From: a virus
Direction: 5' to 3' (one strand)
IMG/VR virus record: IMGVR_UViG_3300021083_000077
Span: 1 to 41,964 of that record
DNA: 41,964 nt
Position 1 is the first letter of the stretch; each line of letters opens with the position of its first letter. Positions 8,093 through 24,555 of this stretch are shown here, one piece after another. The position numbers and the translations under genes were made by a program. The notes under the pieces are model-generated. The model was given only the letters and a program-made list of their open reading frames with translations. It did not search any database and was not told where the DNA came from.

Positions 8093-8104
8093 GTGATCCC
8101 TCAC
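8093..8104 (-). promoter_or_regulatory. recT RBS mini-hairpin, loop AGGGAU
   Basis: On the minus strand GTG-AGGGAT-CAC directly precedes the recT AUG. The three-pair stem is weak, but the hexaloop has the ANGGA motif of CsrA sites and contains the Shine-Dalgarno sequence. Confidence 0.3.
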
Positions 8105-8931
8105 TTAATATTAAAAACCCTCGTCCCTTTCTTATTGGCTTTCCATGTAGCCATAATCTCACCATCTTGTCCCATCAAGTATTCAGCGTTGCCCATGTGC
8201 GACATCAATTGCATCTTTAGGTTATCCTCATCCTGAGAAACCCGTTTAAGCTGTTGCTTGATATCAATTAGCTTACTAAGTGCTGTCTGAGTCTTGTAGG
8301 TCGATGTTGCTATTCTATCTGGATGAGGAGTCCTGTATTTAAGCCGACAATCATTGGTATTGATTGGAGCGGGTTCGATGCCATTCGTAACTCCATGCCA
8401 AAATTCCACGTCCGACTTAATGATAAGCTCTTCGAGTGCCAGGTCACGCTCATAGACAAACTGCATAAATTCATTACCGCCGAACAGAACAGCACAGTAC
8501 CCACGCTTGGCATTAGTCACCGCAACTTGCTTGGCAATCTGGATTAGGTAGGACAGTGGGATGCCGTCACTGGTGGCTGGGTCCCATTCTTTACGCTGAT
8601 AGGAGTTTGCACATTTTGCTTCAACAACCGCCTGTTCAGATTCGAGCCACCCATCCAAATTAGCGAATATATAGGGATAATCAGGATGATAAATAGTATC
8701 AGGAAAAGTAAGCACCACGCCATTTTCTTCTGCAAATCTCTGGAGGATAAGCGGTTCGAGTGCGTTGCCCCAATATTGGAATTCTGTTTCTTCTTCTTCG
8801 TCATTAACGGTGCCTGTCTTCTCTAAATATAATTGATAGGGGGTCTTATAGCTTGAATATCCCATAATTATAGCGCTGTCGGAGGCTCCAAGCCCCTCTT
8901 TTCGCCTAAGTCGTTGCTCTTCTGTTAGCAT
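8101..8931 (-). CDS. YqaJ-type (lambda-exo-like) viral exonuclease, 276 aa
   Basis: YqaJ family: GLGASDSAIIMG near residue 13, then catalytic positions Glu59 (ALEPLI), Asp93 (NLDGW) and the E-x-K pair Glu104/Lys106 (VEAKCA), followed by a Gln in YLIQIAKQ. It resects double-stranded DNA 5' to 3' to feed RecT. The start at 8931 is chosen because GGAG precedes it; two earlier in-frame AUGs (8955, 8943) lie in the promoter leader without a good ribosome site. It is the first gene of the leftward recombination operon. Confidence 0.93.
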   Translation of the reverse strand: MLTEEQRLRRKEGLGASDSAIIMGYSSYKTPYQLYLEKTGTVNDEEEETEFQYWGNALEPLILQRFAEENGVVLTFPDTIYHPDYPYIFANLDGWLESEQAVVEAKCANSYQRKEWDPATSDGIPLSYLIQIAKQVAVTNAKRGYCAVLFGGNEFMQFVYERDLALEELIIKSDVEFWHGVTNGIEPAPINTNDCRLKYRTPHPDRIATSTYKTQTALSKLIDIKQQLKRVSQDEDNLKMQLMSHMGNAEYLMGQDGEIMATWKANKKGTRVFNIK

Positions 8932-8944
8932 ATTTTTCTCCATT

Positions 8945-8973
8945 TTGTAGTACAATAAACCTAAGTTTAAAGT
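8945..8973 (+). promoter_or_regulatory. Candidate rightward promoter (Cro/NAD/replication operon)
   Basis: TTGTAG (8945-8950), 17-base spacer, TAAAGT (8968-8973). It is a modest sigma70 match overlapping the leftward promoter and sharing the operator. It would drive the gene at 9030 onward. Confidence 0.4.
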
Positions 8974-8980
8974 AAATCAA
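8952..8980 (-). promoter_or_regulatory. Leftward promoter of the recombination operon
   Basis: On the minus strand: TTGATT (8975-8980), 17-base spacer, TATTGT (8952-8957). The spacing is ideal and each box matches four of six consensus positions. The palindromic operator lies in the spacer. Confidence 0.5.
8956..8969. promoter_or_regulatory. Operator-like palindrome between divergent operons
   Basis: TAAAC-CTAA-GTTTA has perfect five-base arms. It lies inside the spacers of both opposing promoters and next to the Cro-like gene, so it is a likely binding site for that regulator. Confidence 0.5.
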
Positions 8981-9029
8981 TATGGTATTAACCCGTGAGT
9001 TATTATACAATCAATTTGAGGAGATTAAT

Positions 9030-9257
9030 ATGACTGTAGATGAAGTTTATAAATATTTTGGCACGTTTTATCAGGTGTGCAAGGCGCTTAAAATTGCACA
9101 GCAGAACCCAACCAAGTGGAAGAAGAAGGGGTATATTCCACTTTTGCAACAGTATCGCATTGCGGAGTTAACGGACGGAGTGTTAATGCCCGATGAGATT
9201 GACCCCAGAATTGTGTATCAAGAAAGGATTAAGGATAACGATGCTGCTAATAAATGA
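9030..9257 (+). CDS. Cro-like DNA-binding regulator, 75 aa
   Basis: The start at 9030 is set by GAGGAG six bases upstream; the longer ORF starts within the promoter. The sequence DEVYKYFGTFYQVCKALKIAQQNPTKWKKKGYIP resembles Cro/YdaS-type helix-turn-helix regulators: a short helix, then the A..L.i....t.Wkk.g.iP pattern in which the chromosomal Cro family reads DNA. It sits at the divergent promoter, as lambdoid Cro does, and probably represses one or both operons. No CI-type partner or integrase is seen, so lysogeny control is unproven. Confidence 0.75.
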   Translation: MTVDEVYKYFGTFYQVCKALKIAQQNPTKWKKKGYIPLLQQYRIAELTDGVLMPDEIDPRIVYQERIKDNDAANK

Positions 9258-10083
9258 TAAACCGATTAACTATTTTAAATTCCCAGGTGGTGAGCTGCAA
9301 GTAAAGCTTCCCGATTTTATTGAGTGTGAGCGCGTGGAACTGACATGGCTGCCGACCAACTCCGAGGACATAATGCTGCTGCTACTGGCTGCTAATGCCC
9401 TCAAGCACTACGGAATATATGACATTCACCTTGATTGTCTTTACCTCCCATATGCTAGGCAGGACAGGGTTTGCAATCCAGGTGAGGCATTTAGCTTGGA
9501 GCTTATCTGCAAGCTTTTGGATGGCTGTGGTTTCGCAGGAATTAATTTCTGGGACTTGCACAACTGGTCAGATACGATCCCATTATTTAAAAATACCTTT
9601 GTTTTCGAGGCAGAGGCTTCCGATATCTTTGCCAGATTCAAGGTATTGGATAACTTTGACCTCAAAAATCTAATGCTGTGTGCGCCCGATGGGGGAGCAT
9701 GGGGTCGAGTTGATGCCATATGCTCTAAATTTGACGTTTGGCATCCTTCAATCCAGCTTTCAAAGGTCAGAAATTGTGAAACAGGAGAGATTACAGGACT
9801 ACAGTATTCCGCTATTACATCGTTTAATCCCGAGTTGAATGGAGAGACTGTATTAGTTGTAGACGATATCTGCGATGGAGGCCGAACGTTTATCGAAGCT
9901 GCAAAACTTCTGAAGACCAAGACGGCTGGCAAGCTCTATCTCTACGTTACTCATGGCATCTTTAGCCGTGGCTTGACTGAGTTACTACGCCATTACGAGC
10001 ATATCTATTGCCACCATGTGTTAGACCATGACTTCAAATCCAATGCACGCTTAACAATACTAAAGGAATTTCCGAATGAATGA
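9241..10083 (+). CDS. Ribose-phosphate pyrophosphokinase-like enzyme, candidate ADPR-pyrophosphate synthetase (NARP1 Adps)
   Basis: Prs-family fold. FPGGELQVKL is at the N-terminus, PYARQDRV is at about residues 70-76, DLHN at about 105-108, and the PRPP-type loop VVDDICDGG is at about 206-214, followed by RTF. At 280 residues it is slightly shorter than cellular Prs. It is directly joined (8-base overlap) to a NAMPT-like gene. Phage gene pairs annotated as Prs plus NAMPT form the NARP1 pathway. There the Prs-like enzyme (Adps) pyrophosphorylates ADP-ribose and the NAMPT-like enzyme (Namat) joins it to nicotinamide to rebuild NAD+ after NAD-depleting defences. The loop CDGGRTF differs from the usual DTGGT, which fits a changed substrate. 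A plain PRPP synthetase supplying NAMPT is the alternative. Confidence 0.85.
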   Translation: MLLINDKPINYFKFPGGELQVKLPDFIECERVELTWLPTNSEDIMLLLLAANALKHYGIYDIHLDCLYLPYARQDRVCNPGEAFSLELICKLLDGCGFAGINFWDLHNWSDTIPLFKNTFVFEAEASDIFARFKVLDNFDLKNLMLCAPDGGAWGRVDAICSKFDVWHPSIQLSKVRNCETGEITGLQYSAITSFNPELNGETVLVVDDICDGGRTFIEAAKLLKTKTAGKLYLYVTHGIFSRGLTELLRHYEHIYCHHVLDHDFKSNARLTILKEFPNE

Positions 10084-11584
10084 TCTTAATCCACTATTAG
10101 CTATCGACTTTTACAAGGTAGACCACCGTAGACAGTATCCAGAAGGCACCACAGAGATTTACAGTAACTTTACACCACGGTATTACAAGAAGTCACACAG
10201 CTTGTTACGAGCCTATGACGGTAAGGTTGTGGTGTTTGGGATTCAAGGGTTCATCAAGTCGTTCTTCGAGGAGCAATGGCAGAAGAACTTCTTTGGAAGG
10301 CCTAAGAGTGAGGTAATTGGAGAATATACGGATATAATTCAAACCGCGCTTGGCATTCCTATTTTTGACTGCTCACACCTGGCAGCATTGCATGACCTGG
10401 GTTACTTACCAATCAGGATTAAAGCGATTGACGAGGGCTTTCGAGTGCCAATAGGCATTCCAGTGTTGACTATAGTCAATACCAGACCCGAATTCTTCTG
10501 GCTAACCAATTACCTTGAAACCGCTTTATCTGCTGGACTGTGGAAGGCGATCACATCGGCAACGATTGCGTTCGAATTTAAGACACTCTTAACTCGCTAT
10601 GCCATCTTGACCGGAAGCGATCCCGAGTTCGTCAAATTCCAGTGTCATGATTTTAGCTTTCGGGGCATGTCTGGTATCGATGATGCGACCGTTTCAGGCG
10701 CTGCACATTTAACCTCGTTTGTCGGTACTGATTGCGTTCCTGCTATAGCATATTTGAATAAGTATTATGATGGTGAGTCTACTTGCACCCTTGTTGGGAC
10801 TAGCGTTCCAGCGACTGAGCATAGTTGCATGACCTGTAATGGTGTGGAAGGTGAACTTGACACGATAACCAGATTAATTACTGAGATTTACCCCTCTGGA
10901 ATTGTATCAATTGTGTGCGATTCGTATGATTTTTGGAGAAATATTGATGTCAACATTAGAGGGTTACGCGAGAACATTCTTAAGCGTGATGGTCGGGTTG
11001 TTATTCGGCCTGATTCTGGGAACCCAGTTGATATTATTTGTGGTGATATTACGAGCAAGTCTGGAAGTTTGGAACACAAAGGAGCCTTGCAACTGCTATG
11101 GGATATCTTTGGCGGAACAGTCAATGCAGCAGGTTACAAGGTCTTAGATCCGCATGTCGGCTTGATATACGGCGATGCGATCACAGTGGACAGGGCAAGC
11201 CTTATACTTCAGTTAATGCAGGAAGAGGGGTTTGCTTCAAGTAACATCGTGTTCGGGGTTGGTTCCTACACTTATCAATACGTCACCAGGGACACTTTCG
11301 GGTTCGCAATGAAGGCGACTAGTTGTGTCGTAAATGGTGAGCGTAGAGCAATCTTCAAGGATCCAATTACTGCAAGCGGAAAACAGACCAAGAAATCGGC
11401 CATGGGCTTACTGTACGTGGGCTTAAAAGGTAATTTGACCATGCACTTACAGGATAACGCCACACCTGAAGATGAAGCGCGTGGGATGCTTACTATGGTG
11501 TACGAGAACGGCAAAATGGTAGGTAATACCAACTTGGCTGATATTCGGTACAACTTAACTCTGGAACTTGATAGGATAGAGTAA
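10076..11584 (+). CDS. nadV: Nicotinamide phosphoribosyltransferase-like enzyme (NAMPT/NadV; candidate NARP1 Namat), 502 aa
   Basis: A full-length NAMPT-family protein. It has DFYKVDHRRQYPEGTTEIYSN at residues 11-31, SFRGM near residue 197, a VSIVCDSYDFW core, VIRPDSG..V, and LIYGDAITVDR near residue 364, followed by FGVGSYTYQYVTRDTFGFAMKAT. Canonical NAMPT makes NMN from nicotinamide and PRPP; the NARP1 enzyme Namat instead uses ADPR-pyrophosphate to make NAD+ directly. The overlap with the Prs-like gene indicates they act together. No NMN adenylyltransferase is seen in the window, which favours the one-step NARP1 route. It acts in the host cytoplasm. Confidence 0.92.
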   Translation: MNDLNPLLAIDFYKVDHRRQYPEGTTEIYSNFTPRYYKKSHSLLRAYDGKVVVFGIQGFIKSFFEEQWQKNFFGRPKSEVIGEYTDIIQTALGIPIFDCSHLAALHDLGYLPIRIKAIDEGFRVPIGIPVLTIVNTRPEFFWLTNYLETALSAGLWKAITSATIAFEFKTLLTRYAILTGSDPEFVKFQCHDFSFRGMSGIDDATVSGAAHLTSFVGTDCVPAIAYLNKYYDGESTCTLVGTSVPATEHSCMTCNGVEGELDTITRLITEIYPSGIVSIVCDSYDFWRNIDVNIRGLRENILKRDGRVVIRPDSGNPVDIICGDITSKSGSLEHKGALQLLWDIFGGTVNAAGYKVLDPHVGLIYGDAITVDRASLILQLMQEEGFASSNIVFGVGSYTYQYVTRDTFGFAMKATSCVVNGERRAIFKDPITASGKQTKKSAMGLLYVGLKGNLTMHLQDNATPEDEARGMLTMVYENGKMVGNTNLADIRYNLTLELDRIE

Positions 11585-11920: not shown

Positions 11921-12676
11921 ATGGATCATTCATTTAATGTACAACTCGCAATAGATTTTGATAAAGATATAGCTACTTTTTTAAATAATTTAGCTTTTTG
12001 GACTCACAAAAACGCTGCAAACCGCAAACATTATCACGAAGGCCGTTACTGGATTTATAATTCAATCCCTGCCTGGTTAATCCTTTTTCCGTATGAAACT
12101 ACTGAATCAATTCGTCGAATTATTCGTAATTGTGTTAAGCATGATTTACTGATTATTGGCAATTTTAATAAGAAATCTTACGACAATACTAATTGGTATT
12201 CCTTATCAGACAAGGCTTTAAAGTACTTTCCACTAGTTTTTGGTTCAGTTTTAAACACCCCTGTTGATTCCAACAGTACCCCTGTTGATTCCAACAGACC
12301 TATACCAAATATAAACACAAATATAAAAACTACTAATAGCAGCAGTAATTCTAAACCCAACCCCGAGTTAATGGAGTTGATTGCCTGTTATCGTGAGGTG
12401 TTCCCTGATAACCCTCAGCCACACAAGCGCGTTATATCAACCACATTGCAGCGCACTCTATTGAGCTTAGTTAAGCGTTGGCCTGAATTAGACCCAGAGA
12501 GTAAGCCAATAACCATTGACGGCTTTAAACGCTATCTAATCGCGCTTAGAGGTGGCGCTCCGAGGTTCTCTCTTGGTGAATACACCACAGACAGCGGAAG
12601 ACGAAAGAAAAATAGTCTTGAAACATTTGCTCGGTGGGATACAATCGTGAAATTTCTTGAAGGTGCTTATTCATGA
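11921..12676 (+). CDS. Replication initiator protein (lambda O / DnaD-like), 251 aa
   Basis: The N-terminal region (about 20-100) has the winged-helix pattern of phage initiators: FLNNLAFWTHKNAANRK... GRYWIYNSIPAWLILFPYETTESIRRIIRNCVKHDLLI. It is followed by a Ser/Asn/Thr-rich linker and a C-terminal domain with GFKRYLIALRGG. The gene overlaps the DnaB-type helicase by four bases, the O-P/DnaB arrangement of lambdoid phages. It probably binds the iterons inside its own gene and loads the helicase. The start at 11921 has GAAGGA upstream. Confidence 0.75.
   Translation: MDHSFNVQLAIDFDKDIATFLNNLAFWTHKNAANRKHYHEGRYWIYNSIPAWLILFPYETTESIRRIIRNCVKHDLLIIGNFNKKSYDNTNWYSLSDKALKYFPLVFGSVLNTPVDSNSTPVDSNRPIPNINTNIKTTNSSSNSKPNPELMELIACYREVFPDNPQPHKRVISTTLQRTLLSLVKRWPELDPESKPITIDGFKRYLIALRGGAPRFSLGEYTTDSGRRKKNSLETFARWDTIVKFLEGAYS
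12257..12297. repeat. ori: Two origin-like iterons inside the initiator gene
   Basis: The 20-base unit ACCCCTGTTGATTCCAACAG occurs twice (12257-12276 and 12278-12297), one base apart, giving a 21-base period. Each unit has dyad symmetry (CTGTTG-attc-CAACAG). An A/T-rich stretch follows (about 12300-12360). Iterons plus AT-rich DNA within the initiator gene is the layout of the lambda origin. In protein they encode TPVDSN twice. Confidence 0.6.
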
Positions 12677-14049
12677 AGTCACTGAATAACTGGTTTGAAA
12701 TTGAGTGTAGAGTTCTTGAAAACTTAATGGCAATTGGTGATTCTAGATCATTGAGAACACAATCAGCATTTTTAAAACTTGATTCTGAGATCTTCTACAA
12801 TCCGATTAACGCTAGACTATTTGACCTAATCAAGTCCTGCTTCACGAAGCGCGATCCATTTACCTATGTTGACGTTCTTTGCTTAATTAAATCGGACGAT
12901 AAAACGTTGCATGATCGCCAAGCTGAAATTATGGAGAACTACCGCCTCTATAGCGTCCATTCTAAGTTGCTTGAAAGTGACATTGAACAATTACTTATCC
13001 TTGCTACTCTTCGTAGCCAGATGAATATTGCTAAAAATAAGCTTGAGGAGGTTACTAATTGTCCTGATCCTCGGGACGCTCAGGCCTTATTTAGCAATAT
13101 GGTTAATGAAATATCAGCGTTGAATTTCAGGGAATCTAAGCATGGGATCACCACTCACGAATTAGCAGATTTATTTTATGAGGGCAATTTAGAGAATGAT
13201 CTAATCATTCCAACTACTTGTCATGAACTTAATTTAGCCCTAGGCGGTGGAGTTATGTCCAAGAGCTTAATTACCGTGGCAGCCGGTGCAGGGGTTGGTA
13301 AAACTGGCTTTGGAATTTTCTTGCTCGACTGTATCGCGCGTAGGCTTCCAGGAACACAAAGTCTATTTTTCAGCTTAGAGATGGAGTCAAAACATATTTG
13401 GATGCGCCATGTGGGAATCAGAGGAGGAAAACAGTTTGACAAGCTGAACGAGGTGAAGCGCCTTGACTCGATAGCATCTTGCCTTGAAGTGCCGTTAAGA
13501 ATCTATGATAATGCCTCTTGCCATAATGCTAGCGATATTGAATACATTCTTACGACTGCAAGACTTAAAGCCACTGAGCAACCCTTAGCCGTGATTGTAA
13601 TTGATTATTTAGGTTTAGTTGAAAATCGTGGTCATTTTGAACGCAATGACCTCAAGCAATCGGATATTACAACTAAGCTAGCGAAACTTGCGTTAGAGCT
13701 TAATTGCGTAGTGATAGCTCTGTCACAGATTAATCGGGCTGCAAGTGCAAGAGCTAGTGATGATCGCTGTCCATATCCCAGTGACGCCGCGGATTCAAGT
13801 GGATCGCATCGGTCTAGCACTTTATGGCTAGGCGTTGATCGTCCTGAATTGTATCTCGATGATCCGTGTTATAAAAATCAGTTTGTCGTTAAATGTCGCA
13901 AGAATCGCTTCGGGGGTACTTTCGAGCTAACGTTTGCTTTTAACGAGGGTACGTTTAGCCCCGTCCAGCCTGGTCATTTTCGTAAACCGTACGTTGAGAA
14001 GAGAAGTGCAGAAGAACTGATATTTTCAGCAAAGTATAAGGATAACTAG
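12673..14049 (+). CDS. dnaB: Replicative DNA helicase, DnaB family, 458 aa
   Basis: An N-terminal helical domain (about 1-150) is followed by a RecA-like ATPase. Walker A AGAGVGKT lies at about residues 203-210, SLFFSLEME follows, Walker B VIVIDYLGL is at about 307-315, and SQINR is near 351, then DAADSSGSHRSS. It unwinds the replication fork as a hexamer. At 458 aa it has full length. It overlaps the initiator gene by four bases. The DnaB finger usually reads lSDLReSGsieq; here it is PSDAADSSGSHRSS, a diverged form. Confidence 0.92.
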   Translation: MKSLNNWFEIECRVLENLMAIGDSRSLRTQSAFLKLDSEIFYNPINARLFDLIKSCFTKRDPFTYVDVLCLIKSDDKTLHDRQAEIMENYRLYSVHSKLLESDIEQLLILATLRSQMNIAKNKLEEVTNCPDPRDAQALFSNMVNEISALNFRESKHGITTHELADLFYEGNLENDLIIPTTCHELNLALGGGVMSKSLITVAAGAGVGKTGFGIFLLDCIARRLPGTQSLFFSLEMESKHIWMRHVGIRGGKQFDKLNEVKRLDSIASCLEVPLRIYDNASCHNASDIEYILTTARLKATEQPLAVIVIDYLGLVENRGHFERNDLKQSDITTKLAKLALELNCVVIALSQINRAASARASDDRCPYPSDAADSSGSHRSSTLWLGVDRPELYLDDPCYKNQFVVKCRKNRFGGTFELTFAFNEGTFSPVQPGHFRKPYVEKRSAEELIFSAKYKDN

Positions 14050-23489: not shown

Positions 23490-24000
23490 AGAGATATGGA
23501 ACTGGCATAACATTCTTGAAGAACAGAAGGTATCAGGTCTAAGTGTTGTAAAGTTCTGTAAAAAATATAAACATGACTATAATAGGTTCACAAATTTAAA
23601 GTTTAGACTCATCTATATTAGCCTTTCACAACCACAAGAATATGAACGACTTACTAAGTTTACACGAGAGTTAATGGCTAGTGAGTTACCTATATCTAAG
23701 TTTTGTAACTTGCATAAGCTTAATAAAAAGGTGATCGCAGAAGTCCAAACACATCTTAATTATTTAGATATTATCGAACGGATTAAACTAGAACGAGGAG
23801 ACGAACCGACAATGAATTTTGTACAGATTAAATCTACAATTACAGATCCAATCTACCAGCTAAATCCACCTGCAACTGAAGTAATAGAACCGAAGAACGA
23901 TATTGAAATTGCAATTACTAAAGGAGTTCGTGTAAGTGTATCGCCTCACATAGACAGCTCAAAGATTATTAGAATTATTGAACTTTTAAAGGACTTATAA
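23467..24000 (+). CDS. tnpA: IS66-type TnpA (helix-turn-helix) protein, 177 aa
   Basis: The start at 23467 (MSMKLSDEEIWNWHNILEEQ) has GGAAGGTGAAG upstream. The N-terminal part repeats the IS66 TnpA pattern W...l..q..SGLSv..FCk.., and a second copy (FTRELMASELPISKFCNLH) follows. The C-terminus IEIAITKGVRVSVSPHIDSSKIIRIIELLKDL matches the typical end of IS66 OrfA (I.i..G..i.v....d...l..li..L). It overlaps TnpB by one base. In IS66 elements TnpA, TnpB and the transposase TnpC occur together; here TnpC is absent. Confidence 0.75.
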   Translation: MSMKLSDEEIWNWHNILEEQKVSGLSVVKFCKKYKHDYNRFTNLKFRLIYISLSQPQEYERLTKFTRELMASELPISKFCNLHKLNKKVIAEVQTHLNYLDIIERIKLERGDEPTMNFVQIKSTITDPIYQLNPPATEVIEPKNDIEIAITKGVRVSVSPHIDSSKIIRIIELLKDL

Positions 24001-24353
24001 TGTTAATACCATATGAAAATCGAAAAATATACATGGCATCCAAACCCGTTGACTTCCGCATGTCTATAGACGGCCTCTCGACATTCATCCAGAGAGAGAA
24101 GCACAACCACATTCACGATGGCAGCATCTATGTCTTTTATAACTCGCACCGTGACAAGATTAAGTGTCTATTCTGGGACCAAAATGGATTCGTACTGTAC
24201 TACAAGCGCCTGGACAAGTGTAAGTTCAAGTTCAAGGACATGCGCAAAGCTATTGAAGACATCACTGCCGAAGAACTGGATATTCTGCTGTCTGGGTTTG
24301 AGCCAGGTAACGTTGTTCGTCAGCCGAGGTTACTGAATAGTGTTGTAGGGTAA
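24000..24353 (+). CDS. tnpB: IS66-type accessory protein TnpB, 117 aa
   Basis: All landmarks of IS66 Orf2/TnpB are present: the N-terminus with IYMASKPVDFRMSIDGLSTFIQ, then GSIYVFYNSHRDKIKCLFWDQNGFVLYYKRLDKCKF, and ITAEELDILLSGF at the end. Length is normal. It is translationally coupled to TnpA (TAATG). No tnpC follows: tRNA genes begin within 50 bases, and I could not see IS66-like terminal inverted repeats. It is either a decayed element or a domesticated pair. Confidence 0.85.
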   Translation: MLIPYENRKIYMASKPVDFRMSIDGLSTFIQREKHNHIHDGSIYVFYNSHRDKIKCLFWDQNGFVLYYKRLDKCKFKFKDMRKAIEDITAEELDILLSGFEPGNVVRQPRLLNSVVG

Positions 24354-24397: not shown

Positions 24398-24474
24398 TCC
24401 GAATTAGCTCAGTTGGTGAGAGCGAGCGCCTGTTAAGCGTTAGGTCCTAGGTTCAAGTCCTAGATTCGGAGCCA
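24398..24474 (+). tRNA. tRNA-Asn (anticodon GUU), CCA encoded
   Basis: The cloverleaf folds fully: acceptor TCCGAAT/ATTCGGA, D-stem GCTC/GAGC, anticodon stem AGCGC/GCGTT with loop CTGTTAA (GUU), T-arm CTAGG-TTCAAGT-CCTAG, discriminator G, then CCA. One G-T pair is in the anticodon stem. It supplements host decoding of AAC/AAU; the virion genes are Asn-rich. Confidence 0.95.
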
Positions 24475-24478
24475 CTAT

Positions 24479-24555
24479 TGCCCTTTAGCTCAGTTGGTTA
24501 GAGCAGCACCCTCATAAGGTGAAGGTCGTTGGTTCAAGTCCAGCATGGGCAACCA
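24479..24555 (+). tRNA. tRNA with CAU anticodon (Met or Ile2), CCA encoded
   Basis: TGCCCTT/ATGGGCA acceptor (one T-T mismatch), D-arm GCTC/GAGC, loop CTCATAA (CAU), variable loop AGGTC, T-arm GTTGG-TTCAAGT-CCAGC, then A and CCA. The top of the anticodon stem has a G-A mismatch. CAU can be elongator Met or lysidine-modified Ile reading AUA. The Ile2 option is interesting because csrA appears to start with AUA and AUA codons are used in the genome. Confidence 0.9.

Follow-up and report, generated by a model that had tools for sequence, protein, structure and literature searches.

A predicted NARP1-type NAD+ reconstitution gene pair behind the cro-like gene of an uncultivated phage of about 42 kb

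The DNA analysed here (the window) is the entire IMG/VR virus record IMGVR_UViG_3300021083_000077, 41,964 bases long, in which a rightward block of genes runs in the order cro, adps, namat, ORF53, O-like and DnaB. The features of this block are as follows:

9030..9257, + strand, cro-like repressor gene (P22_Cro PF14549, E 7.9e-9; PHROG 409, E 3.9e-12)
9241..10083, + strand, adps, predicted ADP-ribose pyrophosphate synthetase (Prs-like), 280 aa (TIGR01251, PHROG 619, tree, AlphaFold model)
9862..9891, + strand, sugar-phosphate loop DDICDGGRTF of Adps, residues 208-217 (alignment; the same or nearly the same in most relatives)
10076..11584, + strand, namat, predicted nicotinamide ADP-ribose transferase (NAMPT-like), 502 aa (phmmer to 9W5X/9W5W; catalytic residues; clamp)
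10181..10225, + strand, selectivity clamp loop (SCL) of Namat, Y36-Y37-K38-K39... (alignment; relatives have Y-V-K-(E/H/K))
11261..11293, + strand, selectivity clamp helix (SCH) motif GSYTYQYVTRD of Namat (alignment; motif as defined in PMC12774641)
11597..11758, + strand, ORF53, small conserved open reading frame 3' of namat, 53 aa (homologues at the same place in L006, L007 and L089)
11921..12676, + strand, O/DnaD-like initiator gene (Pfam/PHROG matches, context only)
12673..14049, + strand, DnaB-like helicase gene (Pfam/PHROG matches, context only)

The cro-like open reading frame opens at 8982 and its likely start is the ATG at 9030, which is preceded by GAGGAG; homologues of this gene are present in loci L006, L007, L016, L086 and L089. 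The adps reading frame opens mechanically at 9193, and its homologues line up with the first residue of the protein that starts at the ATG at 9241, which has AAGGAT just 5' of it; the stop codon ends at 10083. The namat start is preceded by AAGGAAT, so that each of the three genes has a Shine-Dalgarno-like sequence 5' of it. The cro-like gene and adps overlap by 17 bases (9241-9257) and adps and namat by 8 bases, and the latter two lie adjacent in one phage operon, as the genes of a NARP1 module do. Both are intact, full-length reading frames with a GC content similar to that of the neighbouring genes. A preliminary description of this DNA had reported overlapping genes with Prs and NAMPT signatures at 9241-11584, and this was borne out, with profile matches far above chance (below). 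ORF53, which has no Pfam or PHROG match, may belong to the same operon.

Genes similar to recE, recT and ssb run leftward from ~8955, and the terminase, portal, head and connector genes make up the right part of the record; the order of the genes points to an early operon of the lambda type. The preliminary description had also called the pair early and next to a Cro-like promoter. It is the gene order that speaks for early expression; a promoter scan was uninformative, with fewer sites than in shuffled sequences and no clear promoter above them. At 8101-9257 of the window the gene opposite the cro-like one is recE-like and not that of a cI-like repressor. A search of the whole record for integrase domains gave none, and so no evidence of integration, and a megablast search of its right half against named phages gave no match. 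Shortly before the terminase gene, and beside genes for tRNA-Asn (24398-24474) and tRNA-Met (24479-24555), a TnpB_IS66 (IS66 Orf2-like) protein is encoded at 24000-24353 (PF05717, E 5e-29).

The Adps-like protein matches TIGR01251 with E 1.3e-33 (116 bits) and PHROG 619 with E 1.3e-65. Its pyrophosphokinase residues R73, D75, H107, D150, K175, R177, D208 and D209 are invariant in a 53-row alignment, and its AlphaFold model (pLDDT 93.1, pTM 0.88) has PRPP synthetases as its best PDB matches, aligned from end to end (Foldseek E 5e-14); VIA-align superimposes 263 residues of the model on 8dbn_A with Z 24.4 and an rmsd of 2.9. Adps and Prs share one catalytic core, and an Adps cannot be told from a Prs by fold alone. 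The two are separated by lineage. In a tree of 70 rows (IQ-TREE, LG+C20+F+G4) the seven housekeeping Prs proteins (one from E. coli, the others from six genomes in which an Adps-like gene is also present) cluster together with 100/100 support, set off by a branch of 1.33. The window protein falls outside this cluster: together with four phage relatives it makes up a clade supported at 100/99, placed among the Adps-like proteins, to which those of SPbetaL1, DyoEdafos and Paenibacillus foliorum also belong; the deep order among the Adps lineages is poorly resolved. Pathway activity has been published for the SPbetaL1 and P. foliorum pairs (PMC12774641) and for the DyoEdafos pair (PMC13232231); a felixounavirus row labelled "verified" in the tree is a stand-in for Bas63 and is not counted as tested. 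The six bacterial genomes, which carry a clamp-bearing Namat, each encode two such proteins: a housekeeping Prs scoring 351-409 bits, whose loop is DTGGT, DTAGT or DTGTT, and an Adps-like one scoring 91-142 bits, whose loop is of the CDGG or CSYGG kind. These scores are on the model that gives the window protein 116 bits.

The sugar-phosphate loop points the same way, since DDICDGGRTF in the window protein stands against DDMIDTGGTL in E. coli Prs, is identical in the felixounavirus Adps and is nearly identical in that of DyoEdafos. The earlier reader was therefore right that CDGGRTF is changed relative to Prs, but we rejected it as a special feature of this phage: CDGGxTF is a common form among Adps proteins, alongside the (T/C/S)S(F/Y)GG form of the SPbetaL1, Kayvirus and Paenibacillus types. 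By lineage and loop, the Prs-like protein is predicted to belong with Adps. PADLOC matches of this protein to PsyrT and ShosT were set aside, as only the shared phosphoribosyltransferase loop was matched.

The second protein matches PRK09198 (E 2.8e-166) and PHROG 448 (E 6.2e-188), and its best solved match by phmmer is 9W5X/9W5W (E about 1e-158, 532 bits), which are structures of the SPbetaL1 Namat (PMC12774641); human NAMPT scores E about 1e-74 to 2e-74 (254 bits), less than half the bit score of the SPbetaL1 protein. Every catalytic residue checked is kept, including the nicotinamide-binding Phe189, Asp215 and Arg306 and the catalytic His245: in SPbetaL1 numbering the alignment retains D13, Y15, F189, S190, R192, D215, A242, H245, R306 and D308, as well as G360, D361, A362, G390, S391, Y396, T398, R399 and D400, and F392 is replaced by Tyr. 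We did not adopt "nicotinate phosphoribosyltransferase", the PRK09198 name, as a working name because the protein retains Asp215 and its best solved match, by a wide margin, is a Namat.

What distinguishes Namat from Nampt is a signature in the clamp helix, GSX-phi-X-phi-X-phi-TRD with aromatic residues at positions 3 and 7 (PMC12774641), and the window protein has it (GSYTYQYVTRD). It is absent from the clamp-less Nampt controls, of which KVP40 NadV has GGGLLQQLDRD, KLB1 has GGGLLQEVTRD and RaK2 has GTKLVNPERGRD. The clamp loop fits less neatly. Lys38 aligns with SPbetaL1 Arg40 and is of the type allowed at SCL position 3 (Arg/Lys/Tyr), but Lys39 at position 4 is not aromatic, and close relatives have Glu, His or Lys there; when position 3 is Lys, adenine stacking has been assigned to position 4 (PMC12774641), so the stacking residue of the window protein appears to be atypical. 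Since single clamp mutants lose only 1.3- to 1.7-fold (PMC12774641), this does not overturn the assignment, and the NAMPT-like protein is predicted to be a Namat. The alignment with NARP1 Adps and Namat that the preliminary description had proposed thus came out in its favour: the catalytic residues and the SCH motif are kept, and the Adps loop is identical to that of a felixounavirus.

Clamp and partner gene also go together outside the window. Among the fetched loci, which are matches to the window Namat plus a spread of phage matches and so not an unbiased sample, clamp-bearing Namats nearly always lie near an Adps-like gene with a CDGG- or SFGG-type loop, and none of the five clamp-less Nampts (L071, L072, KVP40, RaK2 and KLB1, the first two apparently from one virus) has a Prs-like gene nearby. 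Relatives of the window Namat occur at 340 loci in species-representative bacterial genomes (Flavobacteriaceae, Acinetobacter and others); all 80 that were kept (L093-L172) carry the clamp motif, most of them with a CDGG-type Adps gene within 6 kb. NARP1-like pairs may be a common chromosomal salvage route. In an Acinetobacter MD-2021a record a gene for a bifunctional NMN adenylyltransferase/ADP-ribose pyrophosphatase comes after the pair.

The described systems closest to the window pair are NARP1 modules that differ from it in detail. The Bacillus phage SPbetaL1 likewise has Adps followed by Namat as abutting genes in one operon, with the catalytic residues and SCH motif and a Namat 53% identical to that of the window; its Adps, however, is only ~30% identical, with the loop DDLSSFGGTF, its SCL has Arg40 where the window has Lys, and its host and phage type differ. 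The Escherichia felixounavirus humlepung (the stand-in for Bas63) has the identical Adps loop, the SCH motif GSYTYQYMTRD and Lys at SCL position 3, but in its Namat ~70 residues are inserted ahead of the phosphate loop and SCL position 4 is Trp, and felixounaviruses are large virulent phages. Mycobacterium phage DyoEdafos, whose pathway has been reconstituted in vitro (PMC13232231), has the Adps loop DDICDGGGTF and the Namat clamp GSFTYQHNTRD; it carries RyDEP, an RyR-domain cADPR glycosidase, between its two genes, whereas no gene lies between them here. The PRPP-dependent KVP40 NadV and human NAMPT share the fold and the nicotinamide and ribose catalytic residues with the window protein but lack the clamp motif, and KVP40 NadV has no Prs-like gene beside it.

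A six-frame search of the whole record found no CTP_transf_like domain, while the same search matched in 14 of 14 control genomes, which upholds the earlier statement that the window has no NMN adenylyltransferase (NMNAT). Neither the clamp-less Nampt nor the phage NMNAT that characterize NARP2 or PRPP-dependent NadV salvage was found here. No Nudix domain was found in the record, and so no ADP-ribose-hydrolysing Nudix partner, nor was an RyR/RyDEP partner found there, although this negative is weak, the RyR family having matched in no control genome.

With two intact, translation-coupled genes behind cro, the catalytic residues, the clamp motif of Namat and the Adps lineage all in place, we read the pair at 9241-10083 and 10076-11584 as a NARP1 module, with a probability of about 0.92. 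This agrees with the preliminary description, which had assigned the pair to the NARP1 pathway. By analogy with tested relatives, Adps would move pyrophosphate from ATP to ADP-ribose to give ADP-ribose pyrophosphate (ADPR-PP), and Namat would join ADPR-PP and nicotinamide to form NAD+ and pyrophosphate. In this scheme NAD+ is made directly by Namat, and no NMN adenylyltransferase is needed. ADP-ribose and nicotinamide, the two substrates, are exactly what host NAD-depleting defences release, and for this reason Adps and Namat made early would be expected to hold NAD+ up and allow phage growth; substrates, timing and rescue of infection, and with them the enzymatic activity and counter-defence role in this phage, are thus presumed from the tested systems.

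How the site varies can be seen from relatives, which were found by a viral contig scan with the window Namat (the same scan with the Adps-like protein as query gave no match). Four uncultivated IMG/VR contigs, L006, L007, L016 and L089, have a recE-like gene, cro, adps and namat, with O and dnaB where the contig reaches, and their proteins are 60-69% (Namat) and 53-57% (Adps) identical to those of the window. They differ from it in carrying a Band-7/SPFH gene and small open reading frames between cro and adps:

L006:2471-3994, Band-7/SPFH and small-ORF stretch
L007:1358-2953, Band-7/SPFH and small-ORF stretch
L016:2654-4159, Band-7/SPFH and small-ORF stretch
L089:2170-3263, Band-7/SPFH and small-ORF stretch

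The Band-7/SPFH protein of L006 matches PF01145 with E 1.3e-25; the small frames after the Band-7 gene encode 72-75 aa, with an additional frame of ~158 aa in three of the contigs, and three L006 proteins compared with the window (Band-7, 157-aa and 62-aa) gave no match. These genes possibly form a further early accessory module. A fifth relative, L086, has a recE-like protein 67% identical to that of the window and, between cro and O, only a small frame homologous to the 62-aa one. Between cro and the replication genes, four relatives thus hold Band-7 and NARP1 and one lacks NARP1, which makes NARP1 accessory at this site. We raise tentatively, as a possible though doubtful extension, that this stretch is an early accessory slot with NARP1 in a Cro-controlled operon, often together with Band-7/SPFH and small frames, and that NAD+ rescue belongs to a larger early counter-defence island under Cro control, with further components that are as yet undescribed.

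The same NARP1 chemistry could instead serve as a general NAD+ booster for replication or phage metabolism, with counter-defence a mere side effect, and we think this unlikely. The genes do adjoin replication genes, and many bacterial chromosomes carry the same clamp-bearing pair with no established role in counter-defence. ADP-ribose, however, is scarce in the absence of an active NADase, and the missing pair in L086 suits an accessory gene; moreover, phage NARP1 protects against several NAD-depleting systems (PMC12774641). Considerably less probable is ordinary PRPP salvage, in which the first enzyme makes PRPP, the second makes NMN and a host NMNAT completes a NARP2-like route without its last enzyme. 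General models do name the pair ribose-phosphate diphosphokinase and nicotinate phosphoribosyltransferase, the Prs catalytic residues are conserved, and published Namat still accepts PRPP in vitro, working about half as fast as human Nampt (PMC12774641), so that PRPP may be used as a minor route; the SCH motif, the 100/100 exclusion from the housekeeping Prs clade, a sugar-phosphate loop altered as in tested Adps, and the lack of a Prs-like neighbour in all five clamp-less Nampts sampled nevertheless argue against it as the main one. That these are decayed or non-expressed cargo genes is barely credible, for although the cro-O interval varies among relatives, both frames are complete, each has a Shine-Dalgarno sequence and the overlaps are coupled, their GC is like that of neighbouring genes, and catalytic and clamp residues are kept at 53-70% protein identity to relatives.

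NARP1 has already been published with phage and bacterial members, so the window pair, read as NARP1, is a new example of a system of known kind, from an uncultivated phage lineage. It adds a sequence-tested NARP1 for a small (~42 kb) phage, with the pathway as the first genes behind a cro-like early control gene; in one survey no more than about 2% of small phages had NadV-like genes (PMC9503650). Tests of the clamp helix and of Adps lineage can re-label many proteins annotated as ribose-phosphate pyrophosphokinase or nicotinate phosphoribosyltransferase, and the variable cro-O slot may point to more early counter-defence genes.

The Namat reading frames L089:4049-6514 and L067:4977-7391 contain an intein-like insertion of ~300 aa, for which we found no report in paper titles or abstracts. 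It splits the active-site motif RPD|SG exactly between its Asp and its Ser, starts with Cys and ends with VCGN before the Ser, and in L067 only it gives weak Pfam matches to Intein_splicing (E 0.004) and LAGLIDADG_3 (E 0.007). Other phage Namats depart from the published clamp signature (L029/L030, L020/L021/L074, L039, L052 and L053), for example with GSYTYGMVSRD or GSFTYQFKSRD, in which SRD replaces TRD; they still adjoin an Adps-like gene, and the published motif is thus slightly too strict.
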